From Aquisphaera giovannonii (GTDB lineage: Bacteria > Planctomycetota > Planctomycetia > Isosphaerales > Isosphaeraceae): DNA of 64,000 nucleotides. The notes under the pieces are model-generated. The model was not told where the DNA came from. It was given only the letters and a program-made list of their open reading frames with translations, and did no database searches. The position numbers were made by a program, and so were the translations under genes. Position 1 is the first letter of the stretch, and each line of letters starts with the position of its first letter. Location: the NCBI RefSeq assembly GCF_008087625.1, contig NZ_CP042997.1:9052001-9116000 (forward strand), given 5' to 3'. Of the stretch, positions 27,120 through 38,350 are shown piece after piece.

Positions 27120-27461
27120 ATGATGAGCCCGGACAAGGATCCGTCGGATCCCTTGCTGGCGGCGATCGGGGAGCTGCGCCGCGAGCTGATCGGCTGGATC
27201 GATTCCCGCCTGGGCCCGCTCCGCGATCAGGGGCGGGAGACGGCGGCGCCGGCCGCATTCCAACCCGCGCCGCCGGTGGGCCCTGCGATCCCGGCGAGGC
27301 TGCGGCCCCCGCCCGGGGCCCGGTCTCAGCCTTCGCCCCCGGCCGCGGACGCGGGGGATCCGAGGCACCGGCTGGACGCCCTGGCGAGGCGCCTCGGCGA
27401 ACAGCTCCGGCTCGCAGAGCCCTCCGGCGGCGAGCCCGACGAACCGCGCGCCCACGCCTAG
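27120..27461 (+). CDS. Short hypothetical protein opening the Che/GTPase cluster
   Basis: The 113-residue protein has an amphipathic N-terminal helix (LLAAIGELRRELIGWIDSRLGPLRDQ), a Pro-rich middle and a C-terminal helix (HRLDALARRLGEQLRLAE). There is no signal or membrane segment. It reads in the same direction as the chemosensory genes that begin 118 bases later. It may be an adaptor-like small protein. The start is ATG at 27120 or 27123. Confidence 0.55.
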   Translation: MMSPDKDPSDPLLAAIGELRRELIGWIDSRLGPLRDQGRETAAPAAFQPAPPVGPAIPARLRPPPGARSQPSPPAADAGDPRHRLDALARRLGEQLRLAEPSGGEPDEPRAHA

Positions 27462-27578
27462 GAGCCGGCCCCGGCCGGCGGTCGCGCGAGCCGCGTCCGA
27501 CGGAAGGTTCCCGGGAAACCGGCCCCGCCCCACCCTTGCCGCCCAGACGAAGACAGGACGATCCGGAGAGCCCGCCCC

Positions 27579-28016
27579 GTGCCGAGCGACCCCACCTACT
27601 GCCTGTTCCGCTGCGACACTCGCCCGCTGGCCATGGCCGTGGAGCACGTCGCCGAGATCGCCGAGGTCGGCCCGCTCGTGCGGATGAGCCGGTGCCCCCG
27701 GCAGGTGGCGGGCCTCTTCGTCTACCACCAGCACGTCCTCCCGGTCCTGTCCCTGGACGGCCACCCGCGGGCCCCCGACGCGGTCGCCCTGGTCGCCCGG
27801 ACCGAGGCCGGCCTCTGGGCCCTTGGCATCGACCGCGGGGGCACGCAGATCGTCGCCGCGAGGCCCGCGAGGCATGACCCGGCCCGCGGCGAGGATGGCC
27901 TGGTCACGGCCGGCCTGATCCGCCGCGAGGGGGCCGACCACGCGCTGGTGGACGCGGAGGCGAGCTGGCGGAGCTTCCGGATCCTGATCGAAGGTTCGTT
28001 CGCCCGCCCGGCGTAA
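27579..28016 (+). CDS. CheW-like coupling protein
   Basis: The 145-residue protein shows the CheW beta-barrel pattern: YCLFRCDTRPLAMAVEHVAEI at the start, the conserved LVRMSRCPRQVAGLFVYHQHVLPVLSL, then ALGIDRGGTQ. CheW proteins link receptors to the CheA kinase. It is about as long as E. coli CheW (167). It lies directly before the receptor and kinase genes (CheW, receptor, CheA order, as in pil/pix-type clusters). Confidence 0.87.
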   Translation: MPSDPTYCLFRCDTRPLAMAVEHVAEIAEVGPLVRMSRCPRQVAGLFVYHQHVLPVLSLDGHPRAPDAVALVARTEAGLWALGIDRGGTQIVAARPARHDPARGEDGLVTAGLIRREGADHALVDAEASWRSFRILIEGSFARPA

Positions 28017-28051
28017 TGTCGCCAGGTCCGGGGGACTGCTGAGGTATCGTC

Positions 28052-29431
28052 ATGACGCCCTCGACCCGATGGCTGCTCCTGGGTGCCCTCCTCGGCCTGG
28101 CCGCCGCGGCGGCCGGCGAGGGGGCCCGCGCCGTGATGGGCCCGGCCCCGGGCGCGATCGCCGCGGCCGCGGCGGGTGCGGTCGCGGGGGCCGCGATCGG
28201 CGGGCTCGCCGTCCGGTCGGCCTTCGCCGCGGCGGCGAGCCGGATCGCCCTCGTCGCCGACCCGGGGCGGGACGACGATCGCCGCGGCCCGCACGCCGAG
28301 CTCGGCCACGCCCGGCTGGATGCCGAGCTCGCCGCCCTGGCGCGGTCCCTCGAGGCCGCCTCGGAGATGCACGAGGACTATGCCCGCACCGAGCGCACGG
28401 CCCGGCTCTACTGGGCCTCGCTCCAGGCGCCCGGCGGCGCGATCCGGCCGGAGAATGCCCTCTCGGAGGTCGGCGCCAGGCTCCCGGCCGTGCTCGACGC
28501 GATGAGGCAGGCGGCGATCGCCATCCATCGGGACGCCTCCTCGCTGGAGGAGCTGAACGAGCGGGTGGCCTCCGGCGCGGCCGACCAGTCCGAGGCCGTC
28601 TCCCGCACGGCCTCGGCCGTCGAGGCCCTCTCCGAGAAGATCGACCGGATCTCGCGGAACGCCGAGGAGGCCCTCCGCGCCTGCGAGCGGTCACGGGCCG
28701 AGGCCCGCCGCGGGCTCGAGCAGGTCCACAGCGTCATCGAGGGCATGGACCGCCTCCTCGCCCAGATCGAGGTCAACGGCCGCACGGCGAGGCGCCTGGA
28801 GGAGCGATCGGAGGAGATCGGCACCATCGTGGACCTGATCCGCGGCATCTCCGGCCGGACCGACATGCTCGCCCTGAACGCCACGATCGAGTCCGTCCGC
28901 GCCGGCGAGCACGGCCGCGGCTTCGCCGTCGTCGCCGAGGAGATCCGCAAGCTGGCGGAGCGCGCGGCGACCGCCACCCGCGACATCGGCACCATCGTCG
29001 AGGCGATCCAGGCCGACACCCACGAGAGCCTCCGCGCCCTCGGCGAGGAGCAGGCCGAGATGCAGCGCGAGGGCGAGCGAGTCCGCTTGACCGGCGCGGC
29101 GCTCGACCGGATCAGCCAGGTCGCGGAGGACTCCGCCCGGCTCGTCGAGGCGATCTCCCGCTCCACCAACGACCAGGTCGTCGCCACCCAGGAGCTCGTC
29201 CGGGCGATGCAGCGGATCTCCGACGTGACGCACGAGACGCTCGAGGGGACGACGAGGTCGCGGGCCTCGTTGGAGGCCCTGGTGAAGTCGTGCGAGCCCT
29301 GGCAGCGGCTCGCCGCCGTGGCCGCCCCGGCGGACGTCGCCCCTCGCGAGCTGCCGCCCCCCGGCTTCGGGCCGGCGACTCACGCCCCCCGCCGGACCCG
29401 CGAGCTGGCCGCCAGCGAGGCCCGCCCATGA
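28052..29431 (+). CDS. Methyl-accepting chemotaxis-type receptor without a sensor domain
   Basis: The 459-residue protein has two hydrophobic segments at its N-terminus (about 6-22 and 30-60) separated by only a short loop, so no ligand domain projects outside. A long coiled coil follows. The signalling tip is clear: LIRGISGRTDMLALNATIESVRAGEHGRGFAVVAEEIRKLAERA. The tip differs little from standard receptors, so interaction with CheA and CheW is expected. The input must come from the membrane, the cytoplasm or a partner protein. The gene overlaps cheA by ATGA. Confidence 0.9.
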   Translation: MTPSTRWLLLGALLGLAAAAAGEGARAVMGPAPGAIAAAAAGAVAGAAIGGLAVRSAFAAAASRIALVADPGRDDDRRGPHAELGHARLDAELAALARSLEAASEMHEDYARTERTARLYWASLQAPGGAIRPENALSEVGARLPAVLDAMRQAAIAIHRDASSLEELNERVASGAADQSEAVSRTASAVEALSEKIDRISRNAEEALRACERSRAEARRGLEQVHSVIEGMDRLLAQIEVNGRTARRLEERSEEIGTIVDLIRGISGRTDMLALNATIESVRAGEHGRGFAVVAEEIRKLAERAATATRDIGTIVEAIQADTHESLRALGEEQAEMQREGERVRLTGAALDRISQVAEDSARLVEAISRSTNDQVVATQELVRAMQRISDVTHETLEGTTRSRASLEALVKSCEPWQRLAAVAAPADVAPRELPPPGFGPATHAPRRTRELAASEARP

Positions 29432-32400
29432 CCCCGGCCGCGGGTGGCCTGGCCTCGCTCGCGGGGCACCTCGACGACCTGGCCGACCGGCTCCAGCCGG
29501 CATTGGCGGCGGAGGCGGGGGCGGCGGACCTGCGGGCCATCCGGGAGTTCCTCTCCGACCTCTCGGAGGAGGCCCGCCGTCGGGCCCGCGTCGGCCTGGG
29601 CCGCGCGCTCGCCCGCGTCGGCGTGCTCACCGAGCTCTGGGAATGCCGCGCGGGCGAGCCTGGCGACGCGGCCGGCGAGATCGGCCTCTTCTGCATCAGG
29701 GCCCTCGCCCGGCTCGCCCGAGAGGAAGCCGGCGGGGGAGATGGCGAGGCCGTCGCGGCCTGGGTCCTCGACCAGTCCTCCTCCAACTGGGGCGATTACC
29801 TCGGGCTGCTCGAGGGCGACGCCGCATCGCCGGCGGGCGAGGCGGACCCGCTCGCGGAGCCAGAGGCCGAATTCGTCGGACCCGAGCCCGACGAGCCGCC
29901 AGCCATCGACGCCCAGGCCCTGCTCCGACTCTTCGGCGTCGCGACCGCGACCGCGCCGGAGACGCACCGTGAGGGCGGGCCTCCCGCCGAGCCGGCGCCG
30001 CCGCCACCCAGGCCGATCCTCGATCGCGGCCCGGGCCGATTCGGTGCCTCCGGCACGTATGAGCCTCCTCGAGGGACGGATCGCCAGGGCCCGCCCGGCC
30101 CGGCGGGAGCCTCGCCCTCCCGGTGCGGCTCCGCCTCTCCTGTGGGTAAGGCGAGGCTCCCCGAGAAGGACGCCCAGGCGATCGTCATCCCCCCCCTGCC
30201 CCGCGGCATCGACCTGGATGACGAGATCCGCGAGGCCTTCCTCGCCGACGCCACCGACCTCTTCGAGCGGATCGAGTCGCTCGTCCTCGACGTCGGCCGG
30301 GGTGCGGGCTCGCCGGATTCGCTCCGCGAGCTGGGCCGGTGCTTCCACACGCTCAAGGGGGCATCCGGGAGCGTCGGCCTGACGGATCTCGCGGCCCTGG
30401 TCCACGAGCTCGAGGAGCATCTCGAATCGGCCCGAGGCCCTCTCCCGCCGGGGCTGATCGACGCCCTCCACCAGATACTGGTCTACCTCGAAGGGATCCT
30501 CGGGCTGCTCCGCGGGGGCGAGGCACCGGCGCCGGCGACCGAGAACGCCGCGACGGCCGCCGAGCCCCCGTCGGAGATCCACGCCGCGGCCGTGGTACCC
30601 ACGGCCGCGGCGGCGGGGGGCTCGCCATCCGGCGACGGCCAGGAGGGGCCGATCCGGCTCGCGTCCGGGCGGCTCGACGAGTTGATGGACGTCGCCTCCG
30701 AGCTGATCGCCCGGCGCCGCTCCTGGATGAGCCAGGCGGAGTCGCTGAAGGCGGTCGCGGCGATGGCGAGGGGCCTGCGGGGCCGGATGCACGCCTGCCT
30801 GGACCGGCTGCACGAGGCCGGCCTGGGCCGCGAGGAGGGGACGCCGGGCGCCGTCGGCCCCAGGGGCAGCCGCGTGGACGTCCCCGGCCAGCTCCTCAAG
30901 CTCGGAGAGCTGGACGACGACCTCGCGGTCATGGCCGACACCGCCATGGCCGCCGCCGCGCCGCTGGCCGACCACGGCGATGCGCTCGGCCGGCTCACCA
31001 TGCAGCTCTGGGACGAGCTCCAGTCGATCCGGATCGTCCCGGTCCGCGGCCTCTTCCAGCGGCTCGCCCGCGTGGCGATCGACGCGGCGAGGGTCGAGGG
31101 GCGGCGGGTTGACGTCGTCATGGCGGGCGAGCAGATGGGCCTCGACCGCGCGGTCCAGGACAGGGCGTACGAGCCGCTCCTGCACGTCGTCCGCAACGCG
31201 GTCGGGCACGGCGTCGAGCCGCCCGACGAACGCGCCCGCGCCGGCAAGCCGGCCGCGGGGAGGATCACGCTGGAGGCCCGCCGCGAGGGGAACAGCCTGG
31301 CGATCTCGGTGCAGGACGACGGCCGCGGCCTCGACCACGCGGCGATCGAGGCCAAGGCGCAGCGGCTGGGCCTGATCCCGCCGGGCGAGGCGGCCACGGC
31401 CGAACGGCTCAATGAGCTGATCTTCCACTCGGGCTTCTCCACGAGGGACGCGGCCAATGCCATCTCCGGCCGGGGCGTGGGCATGGACGTCGTCGCCCGC
31501 GAGGTCGGGCTGCTCCGCGGCACGATCGAGCTGAGGACCGAGCGCGGCCGGGGCACGCGGATGACCGTCCGCCTGCCGGCCCGCCTGGCGCTGGAGACGG
31601 TGATGCTCGCCCGGGTGGACGGCCAGGCCTTCGCCATCCCCGTCGCGCAGATCGAGCACGCGCAGCCCGTCGAGCCGGGGGAGCTCGGCGGGGCCCGATT
31701 CCCGTTCCGGGACGCCGAGATCCCCCTGGCGGACGCCCGCGCGGTCCTCGGCGTCGCCGACACGCCCGCGCCGGCGTGGCCTAAGCTTCTTGTGGTCCGG
31801 TCGGCGGGCGGGCCGGTCGCGCTCGTCGTGGACGCCATCGAGGGGACCGAGGAGCTGGTGATCAGGCCGCTGAACGCACTCCTGGCCGGCCACCCGCTGA
31901 TCTCGGGGACGAGCGTCTCCGCGAGCGGGGAGGTCATCTCCGTGCTGAACCTCGCCGGCCTCCACGCCGAGGCGAACGCCGGGCCCGCCGAGCCGGGGCC
32001 CGGGCCCGACGGCCGGGCCCCCGCGAAGGGGGCCGGCTGCTCGGTGCTGGTGGTCGATGACTCGATCAGCGTCCGGCGCGTGATGGCGAGGCAGCTCAGG
32101 GCCCTCGGGCTGGCGGTCGACGAGGTGTCCGACGGGCAGGAGGCTCTGGGCCGGCTCCGCGACGGCTCGTACGGCCTGGTCGTGACCGACCTGGAGATGC
32201 CCCGGCTCGACGGCCTCGGCCTGCTCGCGGAGATGCGCCGGCTCCCCCCGCTGGCGGCGACCCCGGTGATCGTCGCCAGCACGAAGGCCGACGCGGAGAC
32301 CCGGCAGAGGGCCCGCTCGCTCGGCGCGGGGGCGTTCCTGCCCAAGCCCGTCGACCCCGCGGCGCTCGCGCAGGCCGTGGGGGGCCTGGTCCCGCCGGCC

Positions 32401-32460
32401 GCGAGGGCCGCCGGCCTCGAAGGCGTTCGCACCGCGGAGGAGCCATGGAAAGCCCGCTGA
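29428..32460 (+). CDS. Hybrid chemotaxis histidine kinase CheA with C-terminal receiver
   Basis: The 1010-residue protein reads: an N-terminal helical domain (about 1-150), a disordered linker with repeat-derived DNA (about 220-250), a phosphotransfer domain with His307 in CFHTLKGASGSVGL, a dimerisation domain, an HSP90-like ATPase with RNAVGHGVE and GRGVGMD, a CheW domain (MLARVDGQAFAIPVAQIEH onwards), and a receiver with Asp921 in VVTDLEMPRLDGL. This is a CheA of the PilL/PixL type. A longer frame upstream is shadow; the ATG at 29428 overlaps the receptor stop. It ends in overlap with the next regulator gene, so the set is translated together. Confidence 0.92.
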   Translation: MTPAAGGLASLAGHLDDLADRLQPALAAEAGAADLRAIREFLSDLSEEARRRARVGLGRALARVGVLTELWECRAGEPGDAAGEIGLFCIRALARLAREEAGGGDGEAVAAWVLDQSSSNWGDYLGLLEGDAASPAGEADPLAEPEAEFVGPEPDEPPAIDAQALLRLFGVATATAPETHREGGPPAEPAPPPPRPILDRGPGRFGASGTYEPPRGTDRQGPPGPAGASPSRCGSASPVGKARLPEKDAQAIVIPPLPRGIDLDDEIREAFLADATDLFERIESLVLDVGRGAGSPDSLRELGRCFHTLKGASGSVGLTDLAALVHELEEHLESARGPLPPGLIDALHQILVYLEGILGLLRGGEAPAPATENAATAAEPPSEIHAAAVVPTAAAAGGSPSGDGQEGPIRLASGRLDELMDVASELIARRRSWMSQAESLKAVAAMARGLRGRMHACLDRLHEAGLGREEGTPGAVGPRGSRVDVPGQLLKLGELDDDLAVMADTAMAAAAPLADHGDALGRLTMQLWDELQSIRIVPVRGLFQRLARVAIDAARVEGRRVDVVMAGEQMGLDRAVQDRAYEPLLHVVRNAVGHGVEPPDERARAGKPAAGRITLEARREGNSLAISVQDDGRGLDHAAIEAKAQRLGLIPPGEAATAERLNELIFHSGFSTRDAANAISGRGVGMDVVAREVGLLRGTIELRTERGRGTRMTVRLPARLALETVMLARVDGQAFAIPVAQIEHAQPVEPGELGGARFPFRDAEIPLADARAVLGVADTPAPAWPKLLVVRSAGGPVALVVDAIEGTEELVIRPLNALLAGHPLISGTSVSASGEVISVLNLAGLHAEANAGPAEPGPGPDGRAPAKGAGCSVLVVDDSISVRRVMARQLRALGLAVDEVSDGQEALGRLRDGSYGLVVTDLEMPRLDGLGLLAEMRRLPPLAATPVIVASTKADAETRQRARSLGAGAFLPKPVDPAALAQAVGGLVPPAARAAGLEGVRTAEEPWKAR
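30105..30161. repeat. 12-bp inverted repeat inside the cheA linker
   Basis: GGGAGCCTCGCC at 30105-30116 pairs exactly with 30150-30161. The segment is coding (PAGASPSRCGSASPVGKARLP) and lies in the linker between the N-terminal domain and the phosphotransfer domain. Confidence 0.6.
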
Positions 32461-33986
32461 TACTCGTGATCGACGACAGCCTGACGATCCGCAAGATGGT
32501 CGAGTGCCACCTCTCGCAGGCCGGCTACCGCGTCATCATGGCCGCGGCGGCCGAGCCGGGCCTCGAGATGGCCAGGGCCGATCGCCCCGACCTGATCCTG
32601 CTGGATCACCAGCTCCCCGGCACGACCGGCGACGAGGTCTGCCGGGCGCTGCTGGCGCGGGAGGAGACCGCGGCGATCCCCGTGGTGATCAGCTCGGCCC
32701 TGCGGAACCGGGCGTTCGCGCAGTACACCGAGTTCACCAACGTGGTCGACCAGATCCCCAAGCCGTTCACGCCGGAGCTGCTCCGGAGCGGCGTGGCGAA
32801 CGCGCTGCAGACCGGGGCGATGGTCGTGCAGGCCCAGCGGACCGGCTGCGCCATGCCCGAGGCGGTCGGCGAGGCCCGCGACGCCACGCTGGAGGGGACC
32901 ACCGCGGCCTTCCCCCTCCGCGCCGTGCTCGACTTCCTGAACCACGCCCGCCAGTCCGGCCGACTCACGGTCGAGGCCGGCCGCGACCGGATCCGCTTCG
33001 CGGTCTCCGGCGGCCGGGTGCAGGCCGTCTACTCCACGACGGTCGGGCCGGAGGCCGTCGAGGCCGCCCTGCCGGCCGAGCTGGCCGACCTCGCCCCGCT
33101 GCTGGCCCTCACGCTCGGCGAGCAGCAGGATCCCTCGATGTCCGGCCTGGTCCGGATGCTCGAGCGGAGCCTCTCCGACCCGCGACGGCTCCGCGCCCTG
33201 CTCCGGTGCCAGGCGGCCGCGCTGACGTACCGGGCGATCGAGGGCGAGCCGGGGCCGTTCGCCTTCGAGCCGGATGCGCCCCTGCCGCCGATGTTCCAGG
33301 CGATGCCGCTTCAGACGAGCGTCGCGGCCCTGATCGTCGAGGGCGTGCGGGCGTGCGGCGAGCCCCTCGACGCCGACGAGTGGGGCCGCCTCGCGTTCGC
33401 CCGCCAGGCCGCCCGCGGCGGCAGCACGGACCGCACGGGGCTGTCCAACGGCGACGTCAGGGTCCTCACGCTCCTCGACGGGAGCCGCCCCCTGCGGGAG
33501 GTCGCGGAGCAGGCCGGCATGGGGCTGCCCGACGTCGCGGCGACGGTCCGCGGCTTCGAGCTCGCCGGGATGGTCGAGCGGCGGACGCTCGGCGCGGGCG
33601 AGTCCATCCTGGCGTTCGACGAGGACCCCGAGGCGGCGGCGCTGATCCAGCGGGTGCTCGGGCCGGAGGGGGCCGACCAGCGGGTGAAGGTCGTCCGGGA
33701 CCGAGTCGCCGCGCAGCTCCTGCTCCGCCGCCAGTCGTTCAACCTGGTGATCCTGCCCCTGGACCGGCCGGAGCACGAGGCCTTCTTCCGGCTCTGCAAG
33801 CAGCAGTGCCCCCCGGGCACGCGGTTCATCGGCATCGCGAGCATCGAGGACGAGTCCGAGCTGGCCCGCCTCGACGCGATGGGCCTGGACGGGGTCCTCC
33901 ACCGGCCGCTGAACGAGGCGGACCTGACCGCGACCGTGAAGCACCTGCTGACGCACGCCCCGGGTTCCATGGCGGGGGTGGCCTGA
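32445..33986 (+). CDS. PatA-like response regulator with DUF4388 domain
   Basis: The 513-residue protein has an N-terminal receiver (LVIDDSLTIRKM; phospho-Asp in LILLDHQLPGTTGD; Lys in QIPKPF), a DUF4388/PATAN-type middle (AAFPLRAVLDFLNHARQSGRLTVE), a helical region, and a second degenerate receiver-like C-terminal domain (ILAFDEDPEAAALIQRV; ends GVLHRPLNEADLTATVKHLL). The order receiver-PATAN-second receiver is reminiscent of cyanobacterial PatA/PixG regulators. It starts inside the end of cheA (32445 versus 32460). It lacks a DNA-binding domain, so the output would be protein interaction. Confidence 0.85.
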   Translation: MESPLILVIDDSLTIRKMVECHLSQAGYRVIMAAAAEPGLEMARADRPDLILLDHQLPGTTGDEVCRALLAREETAAIPVVISSALRNRAFAQYTEFTNVVDQIPKPFTPELLRSGVANALQTGAMVVQAQRTGCAMPEAVGEARDATLEGTTAAFPLRAVLDFLNHARQSGRLTVEAGRDRIRFAVSGGRVQAVYSTTVGPEAVEAALPAELADLAPLLALTLGEQQDPSMSGLVRMLERSLSDPRRLRALLRCQAAALTYRAIEGEPGPFAFEPDAPLPPMFQAMPLQTSVAALIVEGVRACGEPLDADEWGRLAFARQAARGGSTDRTGLSNGDVRVLTLLDGSRPLREVAEQAGMGLPDVAATVRGFELAGMVERRTLGAGESILAFDEDPEAAALIQRVLGPEGADQRVKVVRDRVAAQLLLRRQSFNLVILPLDRPEHEAFFRLCKQQCPPGTRFIGIASIEDESELARLDAMGLDGVLHRPLNEADLTATVKHLLTHAPGSMAGVA

Positions 33987-33987
33987 C

Positions 33988-34995
33988 ATGAGCCGACTCC
34001 AGATCCACGACGAGCGGGGCGAGGGCGGGCGGGACGAGCCCGACGACGTCCACCTGGAGACCATCGCCCTGCTCCAGGAGGAGGTCGCGCGGCTGGAGGC
34101 CGAGCTGCTCGCCCGGGACGAGGCGGACCGGGGCCGGGCGTGCGCGGGGGACCTCGACGACGACGCCCGCGTCGAGGCGGATCGGGCCGCCCGCGAGGAG
34201 GCGGGGCGCCTCCGCTCCGACCTGGCCGCCCGCGACGAGACGATCAAGCTGATCCTCGACCAGCTCAGCCTGGTGGAGGAGGCGGAGGCGGCCGGCCGGG
34301 CCGAGTGGGAGCAGCTCGCCGCCTGGGTCTCCGAGATGGAGGAGCGGGTCGAGCGGGCCGAGGCCGCCCCGCCGCCGGCCGCGTCCCTCGAGCTGGAACG
34401 GCACCGTCGCGAGGCGGAGGCCCTCCGGGCCGAGCTCGACCGCGAGCGCAAGGCCTGGGCCGGGCGCCGGGCCGAGCTGGAGCGGGAGCTCGAGCGGCTC
34501 CGGGGGCTGCTGGCCCGGGCCCCTCGGGGCGAGGGCGCCGGCGGATCGGACCGCCCCGACCGCGCGGCGATCGAGGCGATGGAGGCCGACAACCGGCGGC
34601 TCCGCGAGCGCTGCCGGGAGGTCGAGGAGGACGCGGCGGCCCGGATGGGCTCGCTGCGGGCGGCCGTGGACGCGGCCCGGGCGGAGGCGGAGGAGGCGCG
34701 CGGCCAGGTCGCGGTGATCCAGGACCTCCGCGACCGGGAGCAGCGGGAGTTCGAAGTCGCGGTCGCCTCGCTGCGGGCCCAGTCCTCGCGGGCGGCGGCG
34801 GCCGCGGCGGCGGAGGTCGTGCGGGCCGAGCCCGCCGCGCCCGGCGGCCGCGCGGACATCGAGCCGGACATGCGGATCCACGCCTTCCGCCAGCACCTCC
34901 GGGAGATCCACGAGAGGGAGGCGGAGGACCGGCGCAACAGCAGCCTGGCGGCACGCCTGTCCCGGCTCTGGGGCCGGACGGCGCCGGCCCGTTGA
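33988..34995 (+). CDS. Long coiled-coil protein
   Basis: The 335-residue protein is almost entirely charged heptad repeats (ETIALLQEEVARLEAELLARD, EEAGRLRSDLAARDETIKLILDQLSLVEE, RHRREAEALRAEL-type). It has no membrane segment. It starts 1 base after the regulator stop. Coiled-coil proteins of this type may organise signalling arrays, but this is a guess. The composition (Glu, Arg, Ala, Asp) is helped by the GC bias. Confidence 0.75.
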   Translation: MSRLQIHDERGEGGRDEPDDVHLETIALLQEEVARLEAELLARDEADRGRACAGDLDDDARVEADRAAREEAGRLRSDLAARDETIKLILDQLSLVEEAEAAGRAEWEQLAAWVSEMEERVERAEAAPPPAASLELERHRREAEALRAELDRERKAWAGRRAELERELERLRGLLARAPRGEGAGGSDRPDRAAIEAMEADNRRLRERCREVEEDAAARMGSLRAAVDAARAEAEEARGQVAVIQDLRDREQREFEVAVASLRAQSSRAAAAAAAEVVRAEPAAPGGRADIEPDMRIHAFRQHLREIHEREAEDRRNSSLAARLSRLWGRTAPAR

Positions 34996-35034
34996 CCCGC
35001 CCCGCCGCGAGGCACCACTATCCAGGCCCAGACG

Positions 35035-35574
35035 ATGGATTCACCCGCACCGACCCCGAGACCGAAGGACGCCCCCGCGGCCGCCCCGGAGGCATGGGCC
35101 CGCGAGCTCGAGGAGCTCCGACGCCGGGTGATCCTGCGGCTCCAGTCGATCGAGGACGAGGCCCGCCGCCGGGCCTCCGTCCCCGCCGGCGGGGACGCCC
35201 GCACGGAGGCCGAGCTCCGCCGCAGGGTCGAGGACCTGGAGCGGGAGCGGGCCCGCCTCCTGGAGGACGCGGAGCGGCAGGCGGCGAGCCGGCGGCAGGA
35301 CCTGGCCCGGCTCGAGGACGACCGCAGGCTGCTGGCCGAGTCCTGGCAGCGCCTCGAGCGGGAGCGGATCGACGCGGCGGCCGCCTCGGCCCGCGGCCGC
35401 CCCGGCCCGGCCCCCCAGTCCCGGCTCGCGGTGACGGCCCCGGCGGAGCCGCCCGGCGGGCCGCGGGCCGCGGCCGACCCCGTCAACCCCGTCGCGGAGT
35501 CCATCCTCCGCCAGTTCCAGACCCTCAGCCAGGACGTCCGGCGTGCGTCGGACATGCGAGGCTCCCCAAGGTAA
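35035..35574 (+). CDS. Second coiled-coil protein
   Basis: The 179-residue protein has a coiled coil at about 20-110 (ELEELRRRVILRLQSIEDEARRR, LEDDRRLLAESWQRLERER) and a flexible tail ending in a helix PVAESILRQFQTLSQDVRRAS. It is smaller than the preceding coiled-coil protein and clearly different. A 39-base gap separates them. Function unknown. Confidence 0.7.
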   Translation: MDSPAPTPRPKDAPAAAPEAWARELEELRRRVILRLQSIEDEARRRASVPAGGDARTEAELRRRVEDLERERARLLEDAERQAASRRQDLARLEDDRRLLAESWQRLERERIDAAAASARGRPGPAPQSRLAVTAPAEPPGGPRAAADPVNPVAESILRQFQTLSQDVRRASDMRGSPR

Positions 35575-35586
35575 GAGGATCGGGCC

Positions 35587-36660
35587 ATGCGTTCGGAATC
35601 CTCGGTGATCGACCGCCTCGAGGGCCACCCCGGCGGCGCCGCGCGCCGCCCGCCCGGGGGCCCGGCCTCGCCCCGCCCGCCGCGGCCGGGGCTCGGCTCG
35701 AGGCTGCTCGGCTGGCTATCGCCGCGGGCCGGCCGCGCGGCCTCGCGCGCCGAGGCGGAGGGCGCGGCCCCGCGCGGCACGGAGGGGACGCGGGGCATGG
35801 CGGGCCGGCTCATCGCGGAGGACCGCTACGCCTTCGTCCTCCTCGCGGAGGCGGTCGGCCGGGTGGCCGAGCAGGACGCGGCGGCCGCGTGGAAGGCGCT
35901 CGGGTCGCAGATGGCCATGGTCCCGGCCGGGAGCGTGCCGGCGGTCCTCTGCGACGGCGGGGTGGCGGAGCTTGAGCTCGGCGGCTTCTTCATGGACCGG
36001 CACGCGGTGACGAACCGCCAGTACCAGCGGTTCGTGCAGGCGAGGGGCTACGACGACCTGGAGATCTGGCCGCGGGAAGTCTGGCCGAGCGTCGCCCGGC
36101 TCGTGGACCGGGCGGGCCGCCCCGGGCCCCGCGACTGGGAGGGCGGCAGGTTCCCGGCAGGCCGGGCGGACCATCCCGTCGCCGGCATCTGCTGGTACGA
36201 GGCCGTCGCCTACGCGCGATGGGTCGGCAAGCGGCTGCCCACCGCCGCGGAGTGGCAGAAGGCCTGCGGCTGGCCGGAGCACCTGGGCGGCGGCACCTGC
36301 AACCGCTACCCCTGGGGGAACGCGTTCGATCCCTCCCGCGCCAACCTCGCGCCGAGCGGCCAGGGTCGCACGGCGCCCGTGGGGGACTTCCCCTCCGGCG
36401 CCACGCCCAACGGCATCTACCAGATGACCGGCAACGTCTGGGAGTGGCTCGACGACCCGCTGGAGGCCATCCCCTGCGGCCCCGGCGAGGCCTTCCGCCC
36501 CTGGAAGCCGATGCGGCGGATCCTCGGCGGGGCCTTCGACACCTACCTGCCCGGCGAGGCCGCCTGCCAGTTCGTCACCGGCCAGGGGGAGCTCGACCGC
36601 CGCGACAACATCGGCTTCCGCTGCGTGCTGCCCCTGGACCAGCTCCGCCCACTGCCCTGA
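35587..36660 (+). CDS. Formylglycine-generating-enzyme-like (SUMF1) protein, probably not catalytic
   Basis: The 357-residue protein has a disordered, Pro-rich N-terminus and then an FGE-sulfatase domain: FFMDRHAVTNRQYQRFVQARGY, ICWYEAVAYARWVGKRLPTAAEWQKA, NVWEWLDDP, and the C-terminal RDNIGFRC. FGE enzymes oxidise cysteine in sulfatases using two cysteines near the C-terminus. Here only the second appears (Cys in GEAACQFV); the first is replaced by Pro on my alignment. That suggests a binding or pseudoenzyme role. In planctomycetes this fold is common in signalling proteins. It precedes the GTPase gene. Confidence 0.82.
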   Translation: MRSESSVIDRLEGHPGGAARRPPGGPASPRPPRPGLGSRLLGWLSPRAGRAASRAEAEGAAPRGTEGTRGMAGRLIAEDRYAFVLLAEAVGRVAEQDAAAAWKALGSQMAMVPAGSVPAVLCDGGVAELELGGFFMDRHAVTNRQYQRFVQARGYDDLEIWPREVWPSVARLVDRAGRPGPRDWEGGRFPAGRADHPVAGICWYEAVAYARWVGKRLPTAAEWQKACGWPEHLGGGTCNRYPWGNAFDPSRANLAPSGQGRTAPVGDFPSGATPNGIYQMTGNVWEWLDDPLEAIPCGPGEAFRPWKPMRRILGGAFDTYLPGEAACQFVTGQGELDRRDNIGFRCVLPLDQLRPLP

Positions 36661-36717
36661 CGGGCGCGGGGTCGTCGCCCTCGCGCCGCTCGCCTCAACT
36701 CCCACGGGGGTCCCGCC

Positions 36718-37617
36718 ATGACCGGCCGGCCGTACCTCACGGAATACAATCGCCCGCACAGCGACCAGGGCTGCCCGCTCTGCGGCGGCCACGTCTACGA
36801 GGGGGAGCCCTGCGGGGCGTGCTTCCTGCCGTACAAGGTCATCGAGTCGATCCGGTCGCGGCTCGCCGCGCCCCGGTTCGTCGTGGTGCTCGGGCCGACG
36901 GGCGTGGGCAAGACCGTGTACCTGGGCATGCTCCTGGACCTGCTCTCCCGGGGCGCGGGGGGCCTCCGCGGGCTCTCGCGGAGCCCGTTCTCGCTGGCCC
37001 TCCACCGCAACCTGATCCTCGCCCTGGAGCGGCAGCGGTTCCCGGAGAAGACGCCCGTGGAGACCGACCGCTGGCATTGGCTCCACTGCGAGATCCTCCC
37101 GGCGAAGGGCCGGGCCGCCGTGGACATCGTCGCGCCGGACGTCGCCGGCGAGGCGGTCTCCGAGGAGATGGAGAGCCCCGGCAGCCAGAAGACCATCCGC
37201 GCGCTGATGGGCCGTTGCGCCGGGGTCGTCCTGCTGATGGACCTCGTCGAGGTCGTCGCCGACGGCCGGGCCCAGGAGCTCTTCGCGATGCAGCTCGTCA
37301 GCTACCTCGACGCGCTACGGCCGGGCCGGAAGAAGGGCCGCAAGGTGGACCTGCCCGTGGCCATCGTCTTCACGAAGGCCGACCTCCTGGACGACGGGAT
37401 CGCCGACCCCGTCGCGTTCGCCCGCGGGAACGTACCCGGCCTGTACGGCCAGTGCGAGGCGCGCCTGGGGCGGTTCTCGTTCTACGCCTCCGGCGTGGCC
37501 GGCTCGACGGCGAAGCTCCTGGACGACTCCGGGGCGGAGAGGCTCGTCCCGCTCCGCGTCGAGCCCCGGGGCATCGTCGAGCCGTTCGCCTGGATGGTCG
37601 GCCAGCTCGGCGGCTGA
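36718..37617 (+). CDS. Zinc-ribbon P-loop GTPase (DO-GTPase2-like)
   Basis: The 299-residue protein starts with a four-cysteine zinc ribbon (Cys19/22 and Cys32/35), followed by a P-loop GPTGVGKT (59-66), a DxxG in DVAGE (141-145) and a TKAD base-recognition motif (219-222). These are GTPase motifs. The arrangement resembles the Pfam family Double-GTPase 2 described from predicted bacterial conflict systems. There is no transmembrane segment. Cytoplasmic action as a nucleotide-dependent switch is likely. The next gene resembles the GTPase-associated protein 1 N-terminal domain, which strengthens the call. Confidence 0.78.
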   Translation: MTGRPYLTEYNRPHSDQGCPLCGGHVYEGEPCGACFLPYKVIESIRSRLAAPRFVVVLGPTGVGKTVYLGMLLDLLSRGAGGLRGLSRSPFSLALHRNLILALERQRFPEKTPVETDRWHWLHCEILPAKGRAAVDIVAPDVAGEAVSEEMESPGSQKTIRALMGRCAGVVLLMDLVEVVADGRAQELFAMQLVSYLDALRPGRKKGRKVDLPVAIVFTKADLLDDGIADPVAFARGNVPGLYGQCEARLGRFSFYASGVAGSTAKLLDDSGAERLVPLRVEPRGIVEPFAWMVGQLGG

Positions 37618-37636
37618 ACGCGGGGGAGGCACGCGG

Positions 37637-38350
37637 ATGTGGGCCGAGCACGCGATCTTCACGTCGATCCTGCGCCAGGGGCGAGGGGGCTACCACCTGG
37701 TCGCCCGATCGCCGGGCCTCCTCGACGACGAGGCGAGGGCGATCTCCCGCTGGTCGCCCTCGCACGGCTCCCTGCTGCTCGACGCGGACAACCCCGCGGG
37801 CGTCAGCTTCTACCCCCTGCCCGGCGGCCGGTTCGCGCTCGCGAGGAGCTGCGAAGGGCCGCCGGAGTACAGCGGCCGCGGCGGCCGCCAGCTCTATACC
37901 CACACGATGGTGCTGGACGAGGCGGGCCTGCGATCGGTCGGCTGGCAGCCCCTCGCGGTGTATCACAACGCGCTCGCGGTGGGCGCGCTGCTCTACGAGC
38001 CCAGCCCGCCGACCTCGCTCCGCCCGCTGCGGCTCCCGGACCTGCACATCCCGCTCGGCACGTCCGACTGGGAGGCCCGCGCGGCCGAGCGTCGCCTCCC
38101 CGACCTGAAGCCGCTCCGCGAGCGTCTCCTGGCCGGACGCGCGGTACAGGTCGCGCACGAAGGCGACCGCATGGCCCTCGCCGAATGCCTCCTGGGGACG
38201 CTCCCCCCGGCGGCGGTCGGCAACGTCAGCTTCGCCGCGAGCCTCCGGCCCTCCACCGTCCGGCCGTTCCTGCTCTCGATCGTCGCCCCCGACGCCCTCG
38301 CCAACGGGGCCGCCCACGCCGGGGCGGCCGGGGCGTCATCGACTCGGTGA
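37637..38350 (+). CDS. GTPase-associated protein 1 (GAP1) N-terminal-domain-like protein
   Basis: The 237-residue protein begins with AEHAIFTSILRQGRGGYHLVARSPGL, matching the pattern of the GAP1-N2 domain (a stretch of beta strands with a conserved G-Y-x-x-V-A-x-S-P-G). Known GAP1 proteins are longer, with middle and C-terminal domains; here only the first domain is present, with a short Ala-rich tail. The ATG at 37637 has a GGGGGAGG ribosome site. It follows the GTPase gene after 19 bases. Identification is from memory of the pattern. Confidence 0.6.
   Translation: MWAEHAIFTSILRQGRGGYHLVARSPGLLDDEARAISRWSPSHGSLLLDADNPAGVSFYPLPGGRFALARSCEGPPEYSGRGGRQLYTHTMVLDEAGLRSVGWQPLAVYHNALAVGALLYEPSPPTSLRPLRLPDLHIPLGTSDWEARAAERRLPDLKPLRERLLAGRAVQVAHEGDRMALAECLLGTLPPAAVGNVSFAASLRPSTVRPFLLSIVAPDALANGAAHAGAAGASSTR

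Follow-up and report, generated by a model that had tools for sequence, protein, structure and literature searches.

The window analysed here, 64,000 nucleotides at 9.05–9.12 Mb of the main contig of the 10.5 Mb Aquisphaera giovannonii genome, contains between positions 27120 and 38350 a cluster of ten open reading frames, for which Aquisphaera insulae JC669 is the nearest named relative. All ten are present and co-directional on the + strand, and the gaps between them measure, in order, 117, 35, -4, -16, 1, 39, 12, 57, and 19 bp, which bears out the first-pass annotation of a compact series with gaps or overlaps mostly below 60 bases. Promoter- and terminator-like sites were not found in the region; as the scan used a sigma-70 consensus only, this result is uninformative. 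Counted at or above the curated cut-offs, the Pfam families encoded are CheW; MCPsignal; Hpt, HATPase_c, CheW, and Response_reg; Response_reg and DUF4388; FGE-sulfatase; DO-GTPase1/2; and GAP1-N2, and neither the two coiled-coil proteins nor the small first protein has a significant Pfam match. This first protein, helical and 113 aa long (27120–27461), is weakly conserved and found in part of the family loci. It is followed by a CheW-like adaptor of 145 aa with a GTG start (27579–28016; PF01584, 26.9 bits at a cut-off of 23.5), whose place in the gene order is conserved in relatives, by a chemoreceptor composed of an N-terminal transmembrane (TM) hairpin and an MCP signalling domain (28052–29431; PF00015, E 3.6e-36), and by a hybrid CheA with Hpt, HATPase, CheW, and C-terminal receiver domains (29428–32460), whose gene overlaps that of the receptor by 4 bp. 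The CheA, CheW, and MCP core of a Che system is encoded together, and, as the annotation had stated, CheR and CheB were not detected by Pfam among the ten proteins. Eight CheR-domain proteins and further CheW-domain loci exist elsewhere in the genome; the cluster is therefore one of several Che systems of this organism, and one without adaptation genes of its own.

According to hydropathy analysis, the TM hairpin of the receptor has almost no periplasmic loop, and the loop is only a few residues long in its homologues. This fits a membrane or internal cue, the input that had been suggested for the array at first reading. The CheA motifs are kept in most homologues, and the acid pair, the phosphorylated Asp, and the Lys of the response regulator encoded next (32445–33986) are found in 31 of 31. 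This regulator had been called PatA-like. It does contain a PATAN (DUF4388) domain and a receiver, but its order is REC-DUF4388-degenerate REC and does not match the PatA layout, in which an N-terminal PATAN domain is followed by a C-terminal REC only. Judged from its sequence the second receiver looks degenerate, and we propose the REC-PATAN-REC protein as the phosphoacceptor output protein of the array. The coiled-coil protein encoded downstream (cc1, 33988–34995) has a conserved C-terminal motif; its homologues outside the Isosphaeraceae carry an N-terminal FHA domain above the Pfam cut-off, and this domain is absent from cc1 of the A. giovannonii cluster.

The second coiled-coil protein (cc2, 35035–35574) ends in the peptide NPVAESILRQFQTL..DVRR, which recurs as DPVLxSVMAQFExLQKDxxRRR in the coiled-coil protein encoded just upstream of the FGE-like gene at loci where the GTPase genes stand alone. 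A pattern for this peptide, composed after inspection of the sequences, matches the C-terminus at all nine family loci (9/9) and at 39/45 of the stand-alone ones, compared with 18/3093 background ORF ends; the joined loci of other families have a variant outside the pattern (0/10 matching). Because the end peptide is common to cc2 and to the stand-alone coiled-coil protein, cc2 is a candidate bridge and may connect the Che module to the GTPase module. The stand-alone triplets of FGE-like, GTPase, and GAP1 genes in Pirellulales (L093–L154) usually have such a coiled-coil gene with the recurring peptide upstream, so that they are in effect four-gene modules. The FGE/EgtB-like protein itself (35587–36660; PF03781, E 2.4e-43), which has a C-type-lectin fold, was rightly called FGE-like in the annotation but lacks the FGE catalytic cysteine motif. 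In canonical FGE this motif lies near the C-terminus. It is present in 0/30 of the FGE-like homologues, whose only invariant Cys residues lie in the motifs CWYEA and GFRC, and when its C-terminal part was compared with solved structures, no FGE active site was matched and the sole match was a weak one to SUMF2. An active enzyme was rejected on the grounds of the missing motif. The protein is represented by one conserved orthologue across the loci.

The ninth gene (36718–37617) encodes a DO-GTPase with a four-Cys zinc ribbon and a Ras-like GTPase domain (PF19975/PF19993 over cut-off). Its P-loop, D141, G144, E145, K220, D222, and the four zinc-ribbon Cys are invariant in 31 linked proteins and nearly invariant in 55 stand-alone GTPases; the linked copies thus retain both the D..GE Walker B glutamate and the zinc ribbon that mark the DO family. 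On its AlphaFold2 (AF2) model (pLDDT 88.9) the GTPase domain is Ras-like, with structural Z scores of about 16 to Arl, Rag, and Rap; MglA is among the Foldseek matches of the model, and a Ras/MglA Pfam match is absent. A distant DO-GTPase-like stretch lies outside the window in an 809-codon open frame of A. giovannonii (G000:C1:6244391-6245131), and weak matches similar to it occur in most relatives.

Adjacent to the GTPase gene lies that of a GAP1-N2 protein (37637–38350; PF20013, E 6.1e-17). The family had been named correctly, and the protein proves to be a short form in which N2 is the sole domain scored. Measured from a conserved start, linked GAP1 proteins have 213–251 aa, and most stand-alone ones have about 450 aa (Mann-Whitney 2.4e-10), with the start uncertain in some of the latter. 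The three-domain arrangement (N, M, C) is absent in linked loci, where N2 alone exceeds the cut-off and GAP1-M is sub-threshold in one locus (L091). The AF2 model of the protein (pLDDT 93.7) has TagF as its best match (Foldseek E 6.5e-4; Z 7.8), followed by longin proteins of GATOR1, the Lokiarchaeal roadblock-longin protein, FLCN/FNIP, C9orf72-SMCR8, TRAPP, and DENND1A. The top structural matches are nearly all longin rather than roadblock folds and mostly GTPase regulators, which predicts a longin fold, although Z scores of about 5–8 are middling and in this range may reflect just a common arrangement. Arg81 and Arg209 are invariant (82/82), and in the model Arg81 lies in a glycine-rich hairpin loop between strands 66–76 and 84–93. 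An arginine finger has been demonstrated in SMCR8 (Arg147) and proposed for NPRL2 and FLCN (PMC8213707), and we infer from the model that Arg81 is a candidate for this role. The protein would then resemble its best structural matches, GATOR1, FLCN-FNIP2, C9orf72-SMCR8, and TagF, in an invariant Arg within a glycine-rich hairpin loop. It differs from the longin-domain GTPase regulators in that it has no sequence match in the PDB, a Z of at most 7.8, a GAP role that is predicted, and no DENN partner shown; the sequence profiles of GTPase and GAP1 alike found no convincing relative in the PDB. On these models GAP1 is likely a GAP or other cognate regulator of the GTPase. TagF acts through binding the FHA protein Fha (PMC5995506), a suggestive parallel to the FHA-bearing cc1 homologues.

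Among 59 relatives, every close GTPase homologue has GAP1 adjoining and the FGE-like gene upstream, and most matches in Isosphaeraceae keep the full order CheW-MCP-CheA-RR-cc1-cc2-FGE-GTPase-GAP1, which is conserved in genera including those of Singulisphaera acidiphila and Tautonia sociabilis. Of 45 genomes of the family, 16 have both regulator and GTPase, 29 have neither, and 0 have one without the other. The naive probability of this both-or-neither pattern, 1.5e-12, overstates independence because presence is mostly a genus-level trait (9/21 genera, with variation inside two, g9 and g17), but the pattern itself stands. One genus (g3; G004 and G023) has kept both modules at different loci, in G004 well inside long contigs. 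The cut lies between cc2 and the FGE-like gene, so that the Che module ends with cc2 (L073) and FGE, GTPase, and GAP1 stand alone (L064). Retention of both modules after their separation speaks for a functional rather than purely positional link. Spacing is looser in one locus (L069), with intergenic gaps of 120–990 bp. In another genome an opposite-strand gene lies between receptor and cheA (L059:3399-4919, G006), and CheW/MCP and CheA are therefore not on a single transcript there. A further genome (G030) has, besides a joined cluster, a second, diverged CheW-MCP-CheA-RR set (L075:3733-10000, G030:C31) with an RR 56% identical, in which coiled-coil and GTPase genes were not detected.

A survey of 398 Planctomycetia genomes with regulator and GTPase profiles extends this picture to the class. 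The regulator occurs in 42 genomes, the GTPase in 78, and both in 31, where about 8 would be expected if they were independent (Fisher p 3.6e-16; genome counts overstate the number of independent events, since presence is partly genus-level). Such joint occurrence had been anticipated at first reading, and the free separation of GTPase and Che genes that would have spoken against it is not seen: in 29 of the 31 genomes the two genes are at most 6 kb apart, and the linked GTPases form one clade. In the GTPase tree, built by a quick method with SH-aLRT as its only support measure, a fully supported branch divides 23 Che-linked GTPases and the two from the split genomes from 55 stand-alone ones, and one change explains linked versus stand-alone. 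Among 84,980 species genomes scanned, 77 loci of planctomycete type were retrieved, in nearly all of which an FGE gene precedes the GTPase gene and a GAP1 gene follows it. Beyond the Isosphaeraceae, other planctomycete families keep the gene order as well, among them those of Roseimaritima sediminicola and Ca. Laterigemmans baculatus, and the joined cluster also occurs in several MAGs. In R. sediminicola a stand-alone gene for a CheY-like receiver precedes the cluster (L145:30-512).

The GTPase occurs without the regulator in 47 genomes of the class and the regulator without the GTPase in 11, all of one family (f2) and forming a single branch (99) among the joined rows of the regulator tree. 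Their Che-only loci have a 300-aa gene, here g7x (L076:5458-6366), where cc2, FGE, GTPase, and GAP1 sit elsewhere. It is also found in L163–L170 and L077, and its product consists of a coiled-coil N-terminus and a domain without Pfam match; no Pfam family was found for it, and at best it aligns to cc2 over 56 columns of coiled coil (hhalign probability 44%). With g7x in place of the GTPase module, the same Che input appears with two alternative outputs, and the g7x protein is, by its position, a possible second output of the Che module.

Taken together, the comparisons indicate that the cluster is a conserved composite unit and not a chance neighbourhood; co-occurrence, linkage, and the GTPase clade support the earlier idea of a single conserved system in which a Che-type input is connected to GTPase and GAP1. 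We read it, with a probability of about 0.55, as a cassette dedicated to signalling whose GTPase switch is under the control of a chemotaxis-type array. This reading draws on the parts and their motifs, co-inheritance, the clade of linked GTPases, the shortening of GAP1, and the shared cc2 peptide. A first module of CheW, receptor, CheA-REC, REC-PATAN-REC regulator, and cc1 would sense a membrane or internal cue, whereupon CheA would phosphorylate the regulator on its receiver. By way of a coiled-coil scaffold of cc1 and cc2, the regulator would act on a second module composed of cc2, the FGE-like pseudoenzyme, the Ras-like zinc-ribbon DO-GTPase, and the longin-fold GAP1, and would shift the GTPase between its GTP and GDP states, with GAP1 probably acting as the GAP, or as a cognate regulator of another kind, and the FGE-like protein as a binding partner or target. 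The coupling of Che proteins and GTPase is well supported by the genomic pattern; phosphotransfer, GAP activity, contacts, and the direction of the signal are what we infer from it.

Gene linkage can, however, reflect co-regulation instead of a shared pathway, and both the GTPase module without Che genes and a Che clade without the GTPase exist. The two modules might accordingly be independent and merely co-transcribed, the array serving another target and cc2, FGE, GTPase, and GAP1 doing work of their own under the same promoter. The Che-only and GTPase-only genomes and the separate loci in two genomes would agree with this, but we consider it rather improbable, because the two genomes with separate loci still retain both modules, no family genome has one alone, the linked GTPases are one clade with a shortened GAP1, and the Che-only loci have a different conserved gene exactly at the position of the GTPase module. 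A role in surface motility or pilus polarity, with the PATAN regulator and the coiled coils steering type IV pili or gliding and the GTPase marking the pole, appears unlikely, even though Frz-MglA is a precedent, the PATAN regulator PixE of Synechocystis is believed to target the pilus motor PilB1, the chemotaxis-like hmp cluster includes a gene for the coiled-coil protein HmpF (PMC7690835), and Isosphaera pallida is motile and phototactic (PMC12402505). Pilus and motor genes are absent from the clusters read. Singulisphaera acidiphila, a carrier of the cluster, is described as non-motile. The carrier Tautonia sociabilis is described in the same way (PMC12402505), which weakens a pure motility role.

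The annotation had further implied a conflict or defence role, in which the Che array would sense an invader and the GTPase trigger FGE-like or other effectors. DO-GTPase and GAP1-N2 were described as predicted parts of conflict systems, planctomycetes were noted to have FGS (FGE) effectors (PMC7159879), and the presence of the cluster is patchy (16/45 family genomes). Yet the linked form has no variable effector, no FNIII sensor, and no full-length GAP1, its FGE-like protein is a single orthologue, its components are steady over a class, and PADLOC returned nothing meaningful, only weak coiled-coil and receiver matches, on which account this reading was rejected; we regard defence as very improbable.

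A close functional analogue of the proposed cassette is the Frz-RomR/RomX-MglA/MglB pathway of Myxococcus xanthus, where Frz acts on RomR and MglA/MglB (PMC10329633); some genomes have PATAN genes close to those of MglA and MglB (PMC4316618). Common to cassette and pathway is a Che-type array whose action, in the cassette by prediction, reaches a Ras-like GTPase and the corresponding GAP by way of a protein with a receiver domain, and we read the cassette as working like Frz-MglA/MglB with non-homologous parts. It differs in its zinc-ribbon DO-GTPase, in a GAP1 with a predicted longin fold where MglB is a roadblock protein, in the encoding of its genes in one cluster without CheR and CheB, and in the additional FGE-like pseudoenzyme and FHA/coiled-coil scaffold. 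The DO-GTPase/GAP1-N2 systems of Kaur et al. (2020) share the GTPase and GAP1 families, and an FGS/FGE partner in planctomycetes was noted there already; the text mentions neither chemotaxis or CheA nor longin (PMC7159879). Unlike those systems, the cluster has a single GTPase, a short GAP1, no variable effector, and no FNIII protein (Pfam found no FNIII among its ten proteins). Cyanobacterial Pix/Tax and Hmp clusters likewise encode a PATAN-receiver regulator within a Che-like cluster, in Hmp also with a coiled-coil partner, but their regulators have the order PATAN-REC and are proposed to act on the pilus machinery (PilB1) rather than on a GTPase. Our literature search found no paper joining Planctomycetota, chemosensory systems, and MglA, no description of a Che array joined to DO-GTPase/GAP1, and GAP1-N2 only in Kaur et al.

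Known bacterial links between Che-type signalling and a Ras-type GTPase switch are rare, and Frz-MglA is the main example that has been worked out. The cluster would be a Che system with a GTPase output and, conversely, a DO-GTPase/GAP1 system with a Che input. With a second, non-homologous example carried in a single inherited cluster, the coupling could be tested on a small number of genes, and the DO-GTPase/GAP1 systems, until now predicted conflict systems only, would gain an input that can be defined; GAP1 would offer a bacterial longin-type GTPase regulator for studying the origin of the Rag/Arf GAP folds. Speculatively, and with more doubt than confidence, a Che pathway that acts directly on a Ras-like GTPase may have arisen in planctomycetes independently of Frz-MglA. 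Its GTPase would be governed by a bacterial GAP whose longin fold is akin to the Rag/Arf GAP fold found in GATOR1, FLCN, and C9orf72-SMCR8, and the peptide shared by the coiled-coil proteins would serve as an adaptor by which the same GTPase module is connected to such an input or released from it. Since the array is inherited in several planctomycetes together with the Ras-like GTPase and its probable regulator, the ‘chemotaxis’ circuit of these cells seems to set a molecular switch instead of steering a flagellum.
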